Source: a virus
Length of the DNA: 64,000 nt
Reading direction: 5' to 3' (one strand)
Virus record (IMG/VR): IMGVR_UViG_3300032117_000022
Span: 1 to 64,000 of that record
The notes beneath the pieces were generated by a model. It was not told the DNA's origin. It made no database searches and worked only from the letters and a program-made list of their open reading frames with translations. Made by a program: the position numbers and the translations under genes. Of the stretch, positions 3,429-55,620 are shown one piece after another. Numbering within the stretch: the first letter of the stretch is position 1; each line of letters starts with the position of its first letter.

Positions 3429-4223
3429 ATGGCTACGACAAGAGCGGAAAAGCGAGACCGTAATAGACAGAGTAGACAAAGCAAAGAGAGAACCACAGAA
3501 GATAAACTGAAACTGCACTTATCTCAAATCACACCTGCTACAGACAATCAACGCAGGTCGTTCGAATACTATGATGATGGCAAGAACCTTTTGCTCCACG
3601 GAGTTCCTGGTTCTGGCAAATCATTCATCAGTCTTTATCTTGCTCTTGAAGAGGTAATGGAAGACTTAAACAAACCTCGTAAAGTAGTCATTATTAGAAG
3701 CGCACAATCATCTAAGTCCATCGGCTTCTTGCCTGGCACCGCGGCTCAGAAGATGGAAGTCTTTGAGGCGCCATATATCTCCATCTGTGCAAAGTTATTC
3801 AAGCGTGGAGACGCATACAGCATCCTAAAACAAAAAGGCATTGTTGAGTTCGAATCAACATCATTCCTTCGTGGTACAACCATCGACAACGCTATTGTGA
3901 TTCTAGATGAATGTCAGAATCTAGGTTATAACGAACTTAAAACAGTCTTGACACGTATTGGCGAAAATGCTAAAGTTATCGTATGCGGTGACATCAATCA
4001 AGATGACTTGACAAGTTCTCGTTATAATGAAGAGTCTGGTTTAAAATCTATGATGAGAGTTTTAGATAAGATTCCTTCTATCCGAAAAGTTGAGTTTGAT
4101 GTGGACGATATTGTTCGTTCTGGATTTGTCCGTGAGTTTATTCTAGCAGAACTACAAGAGATTGGTTATTTTCGTGATACAAAAAAAGTTCAAACACAAC
4201 ACGACAACACTGCCTGGTATTGA
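3429..4223 (+). CDS. phoH: PhoH-family P-loop ATPase
   Basis: 264 residues. Walker A is HGVPGSGKS (57-65) and Walker B is AIVILDECQN (155-164). The family box RSAQSSKSIGFLPGT lies between them and VIVCGDINQDDL follows. PhoH proteins are cytoplasmic ATPases with a helicase-like core that are very common in T4-type phages; their exact job is unsettled (RNA metabolism is likely). A ribosome site (AAGGAG) sits 8 bases before the ATG. The 3' end overlaps the following nuclease gene by about 60 bases in another frame. Confidence 0.9.
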   Translation: MATTRAEKRDRNRQSRQSKERTTEDKLKLHLSQITPATDNQRRSFEYYDDGKNLLLHGVPGSGKSFISLYLALEEVMEDLNKPRKVVIIRSAQSSKSIGFLPGTAAQKMEVFEAPYISICAKLFKRGDAYSILKQKGIVEFESTSFLRGTTIDNAIVILDECQNLGYNELKTVLTRIGENAKVIVCGDINQDDLTSSRYNEESGLKSMMRVLDKIPSIRKVEFDVDDIVRSGFVREFILAELQEIGYFRDTKKVQTQHDNTAWY

Positions 4224-12075: not shown

Positions 12076-12144
12076 ACTGATGCTCCTTGCAAGCGTTAGA
12101 GTAGGTGGATGCAACCAACATCGCGACCTACATTCTTATTTATA
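12076..12144 (-). promoter_or_regulatory. homing-endonuclease leader cassette, copy 1
   Basis: On the minus strand: late promoter TATAAATA (12144-12137), then hairpin GTAGGT-CGC-GATG...CATC-C-ACCTAC, then CTCTAACGCTTGCAAGGAGCATCAGT before the ATG. The arms differ from other copies but remain complementary. Confidence 0.85.
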
Positions 12145-15282: not shown

Positions 15283-16446
15283 ATGATGATTAACTTCCTA
15301 TCATTCTTATCAGAAGATGTCGAACATGCTGGTGGGATTTTGCATATTGAGCATCCTTCAGACAGAACTTTCGATGGACCAGAAGCAGCAAAACATGCGG
15401 TAGACACGCTACGTGGTGCAGCAACAGGAACTGCTCCAATCTCACGCAAGCTTGACGATAAGATGTCGTATCAAGTAGTAAAGACGCCTGACGGTCGCGT
15501 TGGTGTGAAATACAAGGGCAAAGGTTCGCATTACAACTTCACCAGCGAAGATGTCGATACACAGCATGGGCACAAGCCATATCTTGCTCATCCTCTGAAG
15601 CTACTACTAGAGCATCTACCAAAAGTCCTACCTGATCGTCCAGGCGAGTGGCAGGGTGGTTATATGAGCGATCCATCAATGAGAACAATCTCAAATGGTC
15701 GTATCTCACATCAACCAAACACAATCGAATATTCTGTACCAACAGACACGAAAGAGGGGCAAAAGCTTCGCAACTCTAAAGTCTCTACAGTTATTCACAG
15801 CGAACTTACAGGTCCGAACAGGGAAGCACATCCTGTTACGGACCTTTCTGAGTTTAAAGAGCATCCAGACGTTCACATGGTGAGTCATCTAGTATCACAC
15901 GATGAACAACATGGCATTGATCCTGTTGCAAAGCGTCAAGCATTGACACATCTAGACCGCGCTGAAAAGCTAATGAAGAACCACACCTATGATCATTTAG
16001 CTGGTCACGAGATTCCACTTCGCACTTATATCAACTCAACAGTATCGTCTGGTGAAGAGCCTACGGTTGAAGGATATAAAGAGCATCTTGGTCGTTCTCA
16101 TCAAAAGAAAATCGATGCTGTTAAGATGCAAAAGACCAAAGAAGCTAAGACAGCCGAACGCGATGCTGCAATGAAACACGTTGAAGAGAATGCAAAGTCT
16201 TTTGGTAAGTCGCTAAAGATTCATGGGCACGTTCAAAATGCTACCAACATTCTAGCAAGAGCATTGGCCAAGTCTGCACATGGCGGATATGGGCACGCGA
16301 TTGAAGGCAAAGAAACTGGACCAGAAGGTTTCGTTTCAAACGGGCTAAAGATCGTTGATCGTGGTGAAGGTGGCTTCAGTCAAGCGAATCGTGCAAGAAG
16401 TGCCATCCTCAAGGCTTCCCCTAAACTAGCAAAGATGGTATCATAA
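15283..16446 (+). CDS. virion-associated protein, DUF6267-like, with capsid-targeting-like N-terminus
   Basis: 387 residues. The start MMINFLSFLSEDVEHAG resembles the T4 internal-protein signal (MKTYQEFIAE), which the prohead protease cuts after a hydrophobic-x-E. Next comes a conserved part, HAGGILHIEHPSDRTFDG, found in T4-like phages of marine and soil bacteria (DUF6267-like). A Lys/His-rich helical region follows. Inference: packaged or injected protein expressed from the late promoter just upstream. Confidence 0.65.
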   Translation: MMINFLSFLSEDVEHAGGILHIEHPSDRTFDGPEAAKHAVDTLRGAATGTAPISRKLDDKMSYQVVKTPDGRVGVKYKGKGSHYNFTSEDVDTQHGHKPYLAHPLKLLLEHLPKVLPDRPGEWQGGYMSDPSMRTISNGRISHQPNTIEYSVPTDTKEGQKLRNSKVSTVIHSELTGPNREAHPVTDLSEFKEHPDVHMVSHLVSHDEQHGIDPVAKRQALTHLDRAEKLMKNHTYDHLAGHEIPLRTYINSTVSSGEEPTVEGYKEHLGRSHQKKIDAVKMQKTKEAKTAERDAAMKHVEENAKSFGKSLKIHGHVQNATNILARALAKSAHGGYGHAIEGKETGPEGFVSNGLKIVDRGEGGFSQANRARSAILKASPKLAKMVS

Positions 16447-51925: not shown

Positions 51926-51954
51926 TTGACATTTATATGCATTTCGCGTATAAA
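51926..51954 (+). promoter_or_regulatory. promoter of the tmRNA gene
   Basis: TTGACA 51926-51931, exactly 17 bases, TATAAA 51949-51954. RNA would start near 51961, at the beginning of the tmRNA acceptor piece. Confidence 0.75.
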
Positions 51955-51960
51955 TAAGTT

Positions 51961-52290
51961 ATCAGTTGTTTGAAAGCAGACTGAAAGATGTAAAGACGGG
52001 AGTTCGATTCTCCCCATCTCCACCATCTATACTGTGCATTTAGTATCTGCTAGATAGTATTGTCTAAAGACTTAGTACTAACGCTATCCTTATATAGCAC
52101 AGTGTAGTTGATGGGGATGACCTGGGATCGATTTGCATTGGATAGGAAAGTCTAGACTGATTCGCTGGCCGAGTGGCTAAAACTGTAAATGTCAACCTAG
52201 TTGCACATAACGACAACGATTTTGCAGCCGTGAGAATGTCTGCCTGATCTAAGTAGTTCGGAGTTTGTGGGTGTACTCTGTGAAATAAAC
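51961..52290 (+). ncRNA. ssrA: circularly permuted two-piece tmRNA
   Basis: Acceptor piece first: T-arm GGGAG-TTCGATT-CTCCC (51998-52014), acceptor strand CATCTCC (52015-52021), A, then CCA (52023-52025). An intervening loop closed by an 11-bp stem (52027-52037 with 52097-52107) follows. The coding piece begins GGGGATG (52113-52119), which pairs with CATCTCC. P2 is TTTGCATT (52132-52139) with GATGTAAA (51987-51994), and AGTCT (52149-52153) with AGACT (51978-51982) continues it. The D-loop box GGATCGA is present. TAGTTGCA precedes the resume codon. tmRNA rescues stalled ribosomes with SmpB. The 3' border is uncertain because a homing gene abuts it. Confidence 0.9.
52203..52247 (+). other. tmRNA tag-coding stretch
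   Basis: From the resume codon GCA: AHNDNDFAAVRMSA then TGA at 52245. It starts like bacterial tags (A.NDN) but does not end in -AA. A one-base shift at GCAGCC-G-TGA would end it after DFAA. In-frame TAG follows four codons on. Confidence 0.65.
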
Positions 52291-53019
52291 ACCCTCATTA
52301 TCTGGATATGTCCAATATCTTGTGCCGTCTTCTCTCGTGGACATTTTTCTTCCAGTGGTTAGATTAGAAAAACTTTTTCTAGTTTGTTCTTTCTTCATGC
52401 CATTTACCTTTACTAAAGATGCTGCATTACTTGCGCGGCATGATAGAGAGCAAAATCTAATATCATCTTTTTTATGATAGAAGTTTTTAGCACACTTTTC
52501 GCATATATGCGAATACACTTTACAAAACTTTGGTTTTGCTTCTTTTATTTTTGTTTTACTTTTGTCTAGTTGACGCCTTTTTGGAAGTTTCTTAGGAATA
52601 TCTAAAGGAAAGAAAGACAACAGACCGTCTCTTCTTAGATTTATTTCATCTTTTGTATATCCTTTGCTCCAACTTGGTCTACTTTTGCCTTTATTGGCAG
52701 TGCCATTACCTCCAGCAGAATGTTTCTTCTGGTTGTAATATCTAACAGTTTTGTTGTAAATGTTTGGTGTCCAATAAAGTTCTTCGTCTTTGATCATGTT
52801 TAGCCAACGTTGTTCTGCTTCACGCAAAGCTTTGTTGTCGCCGTAAACATATTCAAGCACACGAAATTTGAATGTTTCTGGACGTTTCTTGTATGCTCTC
52901 AGCATCATTTTGTTAGAGCAGATATAAGAATCTTCTACTTTACCTTTGTGGCCACCAAGATAAAAGAATTTTGCTCTGGTGTCGTACCAAAGATATACGT
53001 ATCCTGTATAAATAGTCAT
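52249..53019 (-). CDS. GIY-YIG homing endonuclease with zinc-finger tail, beside tmRNA
   Basis: 256 residues. GYVYLWYDTRAKFFYLGGHK is a diverged GIY-YIG opening and LREAEQRWLNMIKDEELYWT its later helix. A C-x2-C...C-x3-C zinc knuckle (HICEKCAKNFYHKKDDIRFC) follows, then a basic end. Its stop lies two bases after the tmRNA tag stop on the opposite strand, as with the 3'-end placements elsewhere. Leader cassette upstream. Confidence 0.8.
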   Translation of the reverse strand: MTIYTGYVYLWYDTRAKFFYLGGHKGKVEDSYICSNKMMLRAYKKRPETFKFRVLEYVYGDNKALREAEQRWLNMIKDEELYWTPNIYNKTVRYYNQKKHSAGGNGTANKGKSRPSWSKGYTKDEINLRRDGLLSFFPLDIPKKLPKRRQLDKSKTKIKEAKPKFCKVYSHICEKCAKNFYHKKDDIRFCSLSCRASNAASLVKVNGMKKEQTRKSFSNLTTGRKMSTREDGTRYWTYPDNEGVYFTEYTHKLRTT

Positions 53020-53086
53020 GCTGATTGCTCCTTGTAAGCGTTAGAGTGACTGGGTGTGCGAAACCGCGAGTCACATCTTATTTATA
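53020..53086 (-). promoter_or_regulatory. homing-endonuclease leader cassette, copy 7
   Basis: Minus strand: TATAAATA (53086-53079), hairpin GTGACT-CGC-GGT...ACC-C-AGTCAC, CTCTAACGCTTACAAGGAGCAATCAGC, ATG. Confidence 0.85.
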
Positions 53087-53089
53087 AAA

Positions 53090-53905
53090 TATGGGTTTGG
53101 TGGTTGACCTTGCAACAGAATAACCACCACTTAGATGAACCTACTTTGCCGACGGGTTCTACCACCGAAATAAGTCTTGACGAAGACGTTGGTGGCTGCC
53201 ATGGAGAGGGTGCTCCATATCGTAGGTTCTTCTAAGTTTAGCTCCACGGTTTATCGAGGGGCAGGAAAAGCCTGGTGAATGCATAGTAAGTCAGTTAACT
53301 TGACTGATACTGCTTTGTTGAAATCAGGTACTAGCAAAGGGCTTAAACAACATTAAGCCTGGTCGTAATAAGAGAGAAAGCCGAGAATGTGGGACAGAGG
53401 AAGAAGTTCCCGAGTCAAAGATTCAGAGCAAGTATCCCGCCCTAGTGGTAAGTTTTCCTGTCACGCGGTAAACCGTGGTATAAATAAGTTTTGTTGGGTC
53501 CGAGCAGAAGAGCGCAAGATCCTAACTATCGAGGAAGATCATCACCCTAGCTGATAACCGCCACTATGTGGGATGTTCGGCGCAACCGATGAAAGGTTTA
53601 TTCTAGGGGGGCTACGTATAGCGATTGCCCTTAAACGGAGCGATAGTACCCAGCAAACTTTGATGAACACTGACAACGAATAACACCACGCGGATATCTA
53701 GGGATCGCGACTCGAAAAGCACACGGTGAGAAGTGCAGGTATCAGTCAGTGTTCATCTAAGTTATGTACTTTGTACTGTCTCCTATCGCGGTACATTGCA
53801 CGGCTAGGTCCGATTGTAGATAGTGATACGACTCTGTTGGGTGTCGGCAGAGTAAGAGATAATGTCTTCTGGCTACTCGGTGGATATAGGGCACCCCGTT
53901 TTCTA
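53090..53905 (+). ncRNA. large structured RNA, GOLLD/ROOL-like candidate
   Basis: About 820 bases without a convincing reading frame but packed with helices: TGGTGGTT 53098 / AACCACCA 53122; GAACCTAC 53137 / GTAGGTTC 53222; inside it CCACC 53162 / GGTGG 53191 with GTCTT / AAGAC and a GACG loop, and ATGGAG 53201 / CTCCAT 53213. Also CCACGGTTT 53244 / AAACCGTGG 53470, GGCTTA 53340 / TAAGCC 53354, a 13-bp helix 53662-53674 / 53745-53757, and ACTCTG 53831 / CAGAGT 53848. Size, phage setting and position beside tmRNA recall GOLLD and ROOL RNAs, but the class is not proven. A TATAAATA lies at 53479, within it. The strand is assumed from the flanking plus-strand tmRNA and gene. Confidence 0.7.
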
Positions 53906-53915
53906 AGGATACATT

Positions 53916-54368
53916 ATGAACCTGTACTTTAAGCCACATAATGAAAATGTTGGCTATCACTTTGGTAGCAAAGGCATCAAGATCATTGAAGAAAAATATG
54001 GTGCACGGTACATGGGTTACTGGTGCACCAAACGTCTAGGTGGCAACTGGAATGAAACTCCAGTAGATGTATTCTATCAACCTAATCCAGACACAAGCAA
54101 AGGTCATACACATTACTTCGGCGTCTATCGTGATGCGGCAGATCGTGTGATGATCACTGAGGCTTCTTCCGTATTCTCTAATCCACTTGTTGGTGCTGTA
54201 TGTGATGACGGCGAAGTGATTGTATCACGATATCGCCATGACTATCAAGAGACTAAAGGCGCAATGATTGATGGTGGACGAGATTATACCAAAACAAAAT
54301 GTTGCAAAACTGTTGAGATTGTGGTAAAAGGAGATAAGTTCATTATTAAGGAGAATGTGAATGGATGA
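53916..54368 (+). CDS. conserved phage protein, 150 aa
   Basis: YFKPHNENVGYHFGSKGIKI, MGYWCTKRLGGNWNETPVDV and HTHYFGVYRDAADRVMITEA are recurring phrases of a phage family of unknown function. Ribosome site AAGGAT. Overlaps the gp33-like gene by 8 bases. Confidence 0.65.
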   Translation: MNLYFKPHNENVGYHFGSKGIKIIEEKYGARYMGYWCTKRLGGNWNETPVDVFYQPNPDTSKGHTHYFGVYRDAADRVMITEASSVFSNPLVGAVCDDGEVIVSRYRHDYQETKGAMIDGGRDYTKTKCCKTVEIVVKGDKFIIKENVNG

Positions 54369-54594
54369 GTTGAAGATCAAAACACCAGCAGAGTTTGCTG
54401 AAGAGATTGAAGAGTTAGTATGGCAGTATGATATTGATTATATTGATGCTGTTATGCTATACTGTGAACGAAACAATCTAGAAGTTGAGACAGTGGCGTC
54501 TCTAGTAAAGGGCAATGCCAATCTGAAGTCACGAATGCAGAGTGATGCAGAGAACTTAAACTTTCTGCCAAAAGTCGCCAGATTGCCTGTATAA
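54361..54594 (+). CDS. 33: late-transcription coactivator, gp33-like
   Basis: 77 residues. FAEEIEELVWQYDIDYIDAV and MLYCERNNLEVETVASLVKG then AENLNFLPKVARLPV follow the phage late-transcription coactivator pattern (family of T4 gp33), which bridges RNA polymerase and the sliding clamp at TATAAATA promoters. Its place just before gene 32 also fits T4 order. It ends with a TATAAATA box in its last codons. Confidence 0.7.
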   Translation: MDELKIKTPAEFAEEIEELVWQYDIDYIDAVMLYCERNNLEVETVASLVKGNANLKSRMQSDAENLNFLPKVARLPV

Positions 54595-54696: not shown

Positions 54697-55620
54697 ATGG
54701 ACTTTAGCAATCTCAAGCGTAACAGCGGTTCAAGCATCAACAAGCTTAACGACCAGCTAAAGAAACTCAACACAAACGAAAATCAGTCGAGCAAAGATGA
54801 CCGCTTCTGGTATCCCTCAACAGATAAGACTGGTAATGGCTATGCTGTTATCCGCTTCCTTCCTGCTCCAGGCGAAGAAGATGTGCCATTCGTTCGTGTG
54901 TTTGAACATGGCTTCAAGGGCCCAAGCGGCACTTGGTATATCGAAAAGTCTCTGACCACACTCGGTCAGAACGATCCAGTTTCTGAGTATAACACTCAAC
55001 TCTGGAACTCAACTACCGATGAGCAGTCACCAGCCCGTAAGCAGGCTCGTGAACAGAAGCGTAAGCTAAACTACGTTTCGAACATCTATGTTATCAAGGA
55101 TCCTGCGAACCCAGAGAATGAAGGCCAGGTTAAGCTTTTCAAGTATGGTAAGAAGATTTTTGATAAGATCAACGAATCAATGAATCCTGCTTTTGCGGAT
55201 GAAGAAGCAATCAATCCATTTGATCTTTGGACTGGTGCTAACTTCAAGATCAAGATTCGTCAAGTTGCTGGTTATCGCAACTACGACTCTTCAGAGTTTG
55301 AAGCTGCTGGTCCTCTGTCAAAGGATGACAATAAGCTTGAACAGATTTGGAAGTCAGAGCATTCTCTACAAGAGTTTGTTGATCCAAAGAACTTCAAGGA
55401 CTATGATACACTGAAGCGTAAGTTGCACGCGGTTCTTGGCTTGAATGAAGCGGCTGCGGCTCGTCGTGAAGTCTTCGAAGATCCTATCGCTCGTGCTGAA
55501 GCACCTGTACAGCGTCAAGCTGCTGCACCAAAGATTGCAGCCGCACAAGATGATGTGCCATGGGCAACAGATGATGAAGACGATGATCTAGCTTATTTCA
55601 AGAAGCTGGCATCAGACTAA
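54697..55620 (+). CDS. 32: single-stranded DNA-binding protein gp32
   Basis: 307 residues (T4 301). The basic N-terminal cooperativity piece is MDFSNLKRNSGSSINKL, the OB-fold core has WYPSTDKTGNGYAVIRFLPA, FEHGFKGPSGTWYIEKS and IYVIKDPANPENEGQV, and the acidic C-tail ends DEDDDLAYFKKLASD. It coats single-stranded DNA and recruits replication proteins. The zinc cysteines of T4 gp32 (C77, C87, C90) are absent; only a His in FEHGF is kept. Confidence 0.95.
   Translation: MDFSNLKRNSGSSINKLNDQLKKLNTNENQSSKDDRFWYPSTDKTGNGYAVIRFLPAPGEEDVPFVRVFEHGFKGPSGTWYIEKSLTTLGQNDPVSEYNTQLWNSTTDEQSPARKQAREQKRKLNYVSNIYVIKDPANPENEGQVKLFKYGKKIFDKINESMNPAFADEEAINPFDLWTGANFKIKIRQVAGYRNYDSSEFEAAGPLSKDDNKLEQIWKSEHSLQEFVDPKNFKDYDTLKRKLHAVLGLNEAAAARREVFEDPIARAEAPVQRQAAAPKIAAAQDDVPWATDDEDDDLAYFKKLASD

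Follow-up and report, generated by a model that had tools for sequence, protein, structure and literature searches.

The tRNA clusters of T4-like phages hold small stable RNAs that have been carried along as unexplained since the 1970s. The species 1 and 2 RNAs of T4 (rnaC and rnaD), of 119-139 nt, are encoded in such a cluster, which also carries the GIY-YIG homing endonuclease gene segB. GOLLD and ROOL, phage-encoded structured RNAs of several hundred nucleotides, similarly lie near tRNA genes (PMC12286853), and tmRNA genes are known to accommodate genomic islands and introns, with the mobile element in ssrA leaving the gene usable (PMC11915505). Here, we describe a locus that invites comparison with all of these, in a window of 64,000 nucleotides (positions 1 to 64,000 of the 68,430-base IMG/VR record IMGVR_UViG_3300032117_000022) derived from a T4-like phage. 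A sequence-only reading of this window had proposed that ~820 bases beside the tmRNA gene (53090-53905) form a single structured RNA, either of the GOLLD/ROOL kind or of a new class. Comparison with relatives leads us to a different account, to which we give a probability of about 0.8: separate small structured RNAs form a modular, late-expressed island here, with a conserved stand-alone core of ~165 nt. Like GOLLD and ROOL, the core RNA is found near tRNA genes, but it matches neither covariance model and is about 165 nt rather than several hundred.

The stretch is followed on the plus strand by a gene for a 150-residue protein (phrog_12504; 53916..54368) and the gene for the late-transcription coactivator gp33 (54361..54594; Pfam Trans_coact, E 3e-18), and then by gp32 (54697-55620). 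The exact motif TATAAATA is present 20 times in the window against 3.0 expected (0 of 100 shuffles have as many), which is the enrichment that T4-type late promoters would give. Given this enrichment and the encoded gp33, we assign as a late promoter the copy at 51949..51956 (plus strand), 5' of the permuted tmRNA. Further copies are assigned to a probable homing endonuclease gene (53079..53086, minus strand) and, inside the 820-base stretch itself, to the core RNA (53479..53486, plus strand). The endonuclease promoter is part of a ~70-bp leader, composed of a ribosome-binding site, a hairpin and the late promoter. The record has about six copies of this leader (window positions 12077, 19946, 33277, 47242, 53020 and 62213), which possibly stand in front of endonuclease genes.

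Modules of the 820-base stretch

As the sequence-only reading had noted, no gene fits in this stretch (the longest ORFs are 55-68 aa, none convincing), a tmRNA lies alongside (identified by both Rfam and ARAGORN), and the sequence is rich in structure, with the fold of 53020-53915 having z = -4.1 (20 shuffles) and that of 53132-53905 having z = -3.2 on the plus strand and -1.5 on the minus strand. The excess of fold energy comes from two cassettes and an insertion (z = -4.4, -2.4 and -5.6), and the conserved core has z = 0.07, such that energy alone would have missed it. A dense fold across 800 nt thus need not mean one RNA.

The first cassette, B (53130..53236, plus strand; z -4.4), is a stem-loop closed by CUUAGAUGAACCUAC and GUAGGUUCUUCUAAG, and the second, E (53658..53761, plus strand), is closed by CUUUGAUGAACACUGAC and GUCAGUGUUCAUCUAAG. 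The perfect 13-bp helix of the earlier reading is real (53662-53674 with 53745-53757) and is the closing stem of cassette E. The outer ends, CUU(A/U)GAUGA and UC(U/A)UCUAAG, are common to B, E and an element following the tmRNA in relative L015, and are shared less exactly by an element in L101. The closing stems covary, with six inner pairs that differ yet still pair (ACCUAC/GUAGGU, GCACAG/CUGUGC and ACACUG/CAGUGU); 55 of 60 cells are paired, and the observed pairing ranks first among the 24 permutations. The cassette interiors are unrelated, with that of L101 including a tRNA-like T-arm. The elements in L015 and L101, like cassette B, begin right after ...CCACCA, and cassette E begins 2-3 nt past the core. 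These CUUAGAUGA...UCUUCUAAG cassettes, which directly follow the ends of a tmRNA, the core and a tRNA-like RNA, are probably 3' trailers that shield 3' ends or mark them for processing.

Between cassette B and the core is element C (53241..53480, plus strand), a structured insertion of ~240 nt at a TA, with ends CCACGGTTTA and TAAACCGTGG and a z of -5.6. It is absent from L010, L012, L092, L098 and L100, and alignment with L010 and L012 shows 53241-53478 as additional sequence with clean borders, flanked by TTTA and TAAATAAG and with an overlap of 2 nt (TA). Only two differences distinguish the element C copies of the window and L094, and since both fall in predicted pairs and break them, the predicted fold is without comparative support. 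We considered a group I intron, but element C has no RF00028 match at E<=10, and the same library does find one in L032 (6017-6233; RF00028, 59 bits). The L032 intron adjoins a break in the gp32 coding match and is therefore probably inside the gp32 gene. Element F (53764..53853, plus strand), recognized by comparison with L032 (86.6% identity over 82 nt), is a conserved leader of the gene at 53916 and ends in a 9-bp hairpin (53831-53853) whose stem is kept in L032 though most of its pairs have changed.

These modules come and go independently. L032 is without cassettes B and E and element C, and has the core next to element F; L094 has element C without the endonuclease gene, and L010 the endonuclease gene without element C. 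In L013, everything from cassette B into the gene at 53916 has been lost, B, C, core and E together, and the core must be dispensable or replaceable there. This pattern of presence and absence is that of independent units. It is not the pattern of one continuous unit of several hundred nucleotides that is conserved whole, as expected of an ornate RNA like GOLLD or ROOL. The size of the stretch, its place near tmRNA and tRNA genes and its overall fold energy do match the description of those RNAs (PMC12286853), and a single ~820-nt molecule of this kind would presumably assemble into a large RNA complex. Nonetheless, cmscan of 52240-54000 with permissive filters and a threshold of E<=10 matched neither GOLLD nor ROOL, the tmRNA being the sole Rfam match in this interval; a 240-nt block is missing from near-identical phages, the first 39 nt are tmRNA, a TATAAATA promoter lies within, and the core travels alone in other phages. 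We rejected the single giant RNA on the indel pattern, the inner promoter and the tmRNA end; it is very improbable, and on the comparative data already contradicted. The alternative that the sequence-only reading had allowed, a new class, is supported for 53491-53655, although not for an ~820-nt molecule. More broadly, the locus shows phage RNA genes being assembled from cassettes.

A probable homing endonuclease gene in the permuted tmRNA gene

The tmRNA is of the permuted, two-piece type (RF04321/RF01849), which is also present in many T4-like relatives, with an acceptor piece, an intervening sequence and a coding piece extending to the tag stop codon (51961..52247, plus strand; RF04321, 72.7 bits; ARAGORN); its tag is AHNDNDFAAVRMSA. 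On the opposite strand is a probable homing endonuclease gene encoding 256 aa (52249..53019, minus strand), inserted in the tmRNA gene and with its own hairpin leader at 53020-53078. By tblastn, residues 6-116 are 35-42% identical to annotated Sinorhizobium phage homing endonucleases (E 1e-16), and the relative of this protein in L148 has NUMOD3 motifs. Genes resembling homing endonucleases lie within this coding piece, but on the other strand, in the window (52249-53019), L013 (3715-4428) and L148 (5202-5780).

Behind the endonuclease gene, the first ~40 bases of the 820-base stretch (GGUGGUUGACCUUGCAACAGAAUAACCACCAC; 53093..53131, plus strand) are the 3' end that the tmRNA coding piece had before it was displaced. 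This end is matched by the alpha_tmRNA model (53052-53131, E 0.01) and carries the 3' motif of a permuted coding piece, with a stem ... GCAACAGAA ... CCACCAC. In L094, a relative at this locus without the endonuclease gene, the tmRNA gives a full-length alpha_tmRNA match (118 bits), and its coding piece continues into GGGGTTTGGTGGGAACCTAGCAACAGAATCCCACCACT and then straight into cassette B; in the window, the same end lies about 840 bases further on, behind the minus-strand gene. The tmRNA in use in the window would have a replacement 3' end at 52257..52294 (plus strand), which falls after the tag stop codon and before most of the endonuclease gene, as suggested by comparison with the insertion-free L094. 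This segment forms a hairpin, GUGGGUG...CACCC, and is read from the strand opposite the codons for the endonuclease C terminus. L013 and L148 have the same layout with a substitute 3' end, but the sequence differs, and as in the window the original tmRNA end remains behind the endonuclease gene. The displaced piece of L148 even retains the old tag ending GCTCTAGCAGCTTAA (ALAA stop), and its tmRNA in use ends VAMKMAA. From comparison of L094, L013 and L148, it thus seems that the endonuclease gene entered the tmRNA coding piece and brought with it a new tag end and a new 3' end.

This arrangement resembles ssrA islands and introns in having a mobile element within a tmRNA gene, but differs in that the endonuclease gene is free-standing and on the opposite strand, the codons for its C terminus also serve as the new tmRNA 3' end, and the former end persists beyond the gene. 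We found no report in the open-licence literature of homing endonuclease genes of this kind within phage tmRNA, and the locus would be an example of a homing endonuclease gene that invades a tmRNA gene and rebuilds the 3' end from its own antisense codons.

Structure and distribution of the core RNA

The core RNA (53491..53655, plus strand; model match, 174 bits) is a pseudoknotted RNA of ~165 nt. It is a molecule separate from the permuted tmRNA, with neither an acceptor nor a tag part. A search with two exact motifs identified it in 23 IMG/VR viral contigs, which are fragments of genomes, with eight distinct sequences among them. The consensus structure has six helices. The two ends of the core pair with each other (P1; CUGGGU/ACCCAG), and the loop of the hairpin CCCU[AACUACC]GAGG (CCCU/AGGG) forms a pseudoknot with GGUAGU, beside the 3' strand of P1. 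Three more helices occupy a branched middle: CCUAG/CUAGG, a hairpin around GCGCAA, and a GGxC/GxCC helix followed by the invariant CUUAAAC; the middle of the L106 core aligns poorly.

Covariation provides the main support for this structure, and the check in relatives that the sequence-only reading had called for came out in favor of the core. In the eight sequences 97.1% of cells are paired, and 12 of 31 pairs are changed on both sides, including a pseudoknot pair (C-G to U-A in the window) and the hairpin stem (CCC/GGG to UCC/GGA in the window and L032). The covariation score is 0.288 compared to 0.132 in shuffles, with none of 500 shuffles as high, and the result holds with near-duplicates removed (six sequences). 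When the partners are slid by 1-3 columns pairing falls from 97% to 35-54%, although this control flatters the structure, which was drawn by eye on these same eight sequences; better evidence comes from the shuffles and from the pairs changed on both sides. Five of the six pseudoknot pairs are invariant across the family. The minimum-energy fold is no better than that of shuffled sequence and neither supports nor refutes the structure. Repeated invasion of the site, by endonuclease genes and by element C, might be expected if the conserved element were DNA, such as a replication origin or a recombination hotspot, but the compensatory changes fit pairing of one strand in an RNA pseudoknot, with G-U pairs accepted, and a DNA element is scarcely credible as an explanation.

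We thus have a consensus structure with covariation in independent loci, and the core has no Rfam family match at E<=10. We also weighed RNase P, a group I intron and self-cleaving ribozymes, and set them aside for want of any Rfam match or recognizable signature. The core recalls the T4 species 1 and 2 RNAs in its size, its place in the genome and its neighbors, but species 1 ends in a tRNA-like T-arm and the core does not, and model R1 has no hit in the T4 region (L109) at E<=5, so we also rejected identity with these RNAs. We found no published account of the core itself in the open-licence literature. In our reading it represents a new family of small late RNAs of phages, which would give T4-like phages a second such family, unrelated to the first, whose structure is well supported and whose late promoter motif is clear; at 165 nt it offers a compact target for knock-out, pull-down and probing experiments.

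The eight distinct sequences make a small, narrow family; this counts against our explanation of the region, as do the loss of the core in L013, the invariant pseudoknot pairs, the poor alignment of the L106 middle and the lack of a clear TATAAATA in the right place in L032 and L106. Wider sequence patterns added only chance hits as judged by the covariance model, including viral contigs L110-L112 and L188-L189, for which the model gives no hit. Among GTDB genomes the first pattern found none and the second found one (L113), which lies in a coding region and has no model hit, and when the whole region and two divergent cores were compared by blastn with 50,697 phage records, nothing real turned up; these GTDB and named-phage searches used motifs or blastn, which divergent members could escape. 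A model search of ~1.7 Mb of the relatives' loci gave no additional distinct members below E 1.

Genomic contexts and possible roles of the core RNA

The core occurs in at least four contexts. It is directly before tRNA-Ser, with a gap of 4-6 nt, and then tmRNA, in L016, L088 and L148; ~100 nt after the tmRNA in L106; after an unrelated ORF and before a tRNA-like element in L101; and upstream of the phrog_12504 gene in the window and L032, next to cassette E and element F, respectively. The L016, L088 and L148 loci also have one or two T-arm tRNA-like RNAs after tRNA-Ser (~946-1150 in L016 and ~4235-4322 in L148), most of them CCA-ended and not called by ARAGORN. The TATAAATA motif ends 4 nt before the modelled core start in the window, L010 and L094, and forms with one mismatch are at about the same place in L016 and L148 (CATAAATA) and L101 (TATAAGTA). 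A weaker promoter-like sequence, ACTAAATA, precedes the core in L088, and L032 and L106 have no clear late-promoter motif at the right place.

These contexts bear on whether the core acts in cis. Its position close to tRNA-Ser in three phages and to the tmRNA in L106 raises the prospect that it is a processing or spacer element of a tRNA/tmRNA precursor, on which maturation of tRNA-Ser or tmRNA would depend in cis. We consider this unlikely: the window tRNA-Ser is 2 kb from the core, behind gp32, several phages have a promoter motif for the core itself, and its invariant positions are many, a good share of them unpaired, which points to something beyond a spacer. More doubtful still is a cis-acting leader or riboswitch controlling the phrog_12504-gp33 operon. 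The core is upstream of that operon in the window and L032, and a glutamine riboswitch is found near the tmRNA and a coactivator gene in marine T4-like relatives (PMC9004378). But other genes lie downstream of the core in L016, L088, L148, L101 and L106, the core ends pair together with no expression platform seen, there is no match to a riboswitch family in Rfam, and element F is a better leader candidate.

We favor a late-expressed, stand-alone core RNA. Its transcript would start from its own gp33-dependent TATAAATA promoter, at or a few bases from the first helix; T4 spacing would place the transcript start no more than a few nucleotides from P1. Pairing of the ends through P1, together with the hairpin-loop pseudoknot, would lock the RNA, with the branched middle carrying the other three helices. 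Transcripts with mutually pairing ends are typical of stable small RNAs, and we infer the transcription of the core, its exact ends and its stability. What it does is a more tentative matter. Judging by its tmRNA and tRNA-Ser neighbors, the likeliest role, though at less than even odds, is that of a stable RNA that acts in trans, late in infection, on the machinery of translation or RNA processing, perhaps akin to the T4 species 1 and 2 RNAs. Equally speculative is that this new class of late RNA acts in trans on ribosomes, or on tRNA and tmRNA processing, via its pseudoknot, with the units bounded by interchangeable CUUAGAUGA...UCUAAG trailer cassettes.

Two further observations concern structured RNAs elsewhere. 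The tRNA cluster of phage L094 includes a tRNA with anticodon CTA (3871-3944; tRNA-Pyl type by ARAGORN), a possible amber suppressor. Among 200-nt tiles of the window, the strongest folds are at 15600 (minus strand; z -8.0), 800 (plus strand; z -7.4) and 55600 (plus strand; z -5.5), each with 12 shuffles, and the last of these contains tRNA-Ser and a terminator.
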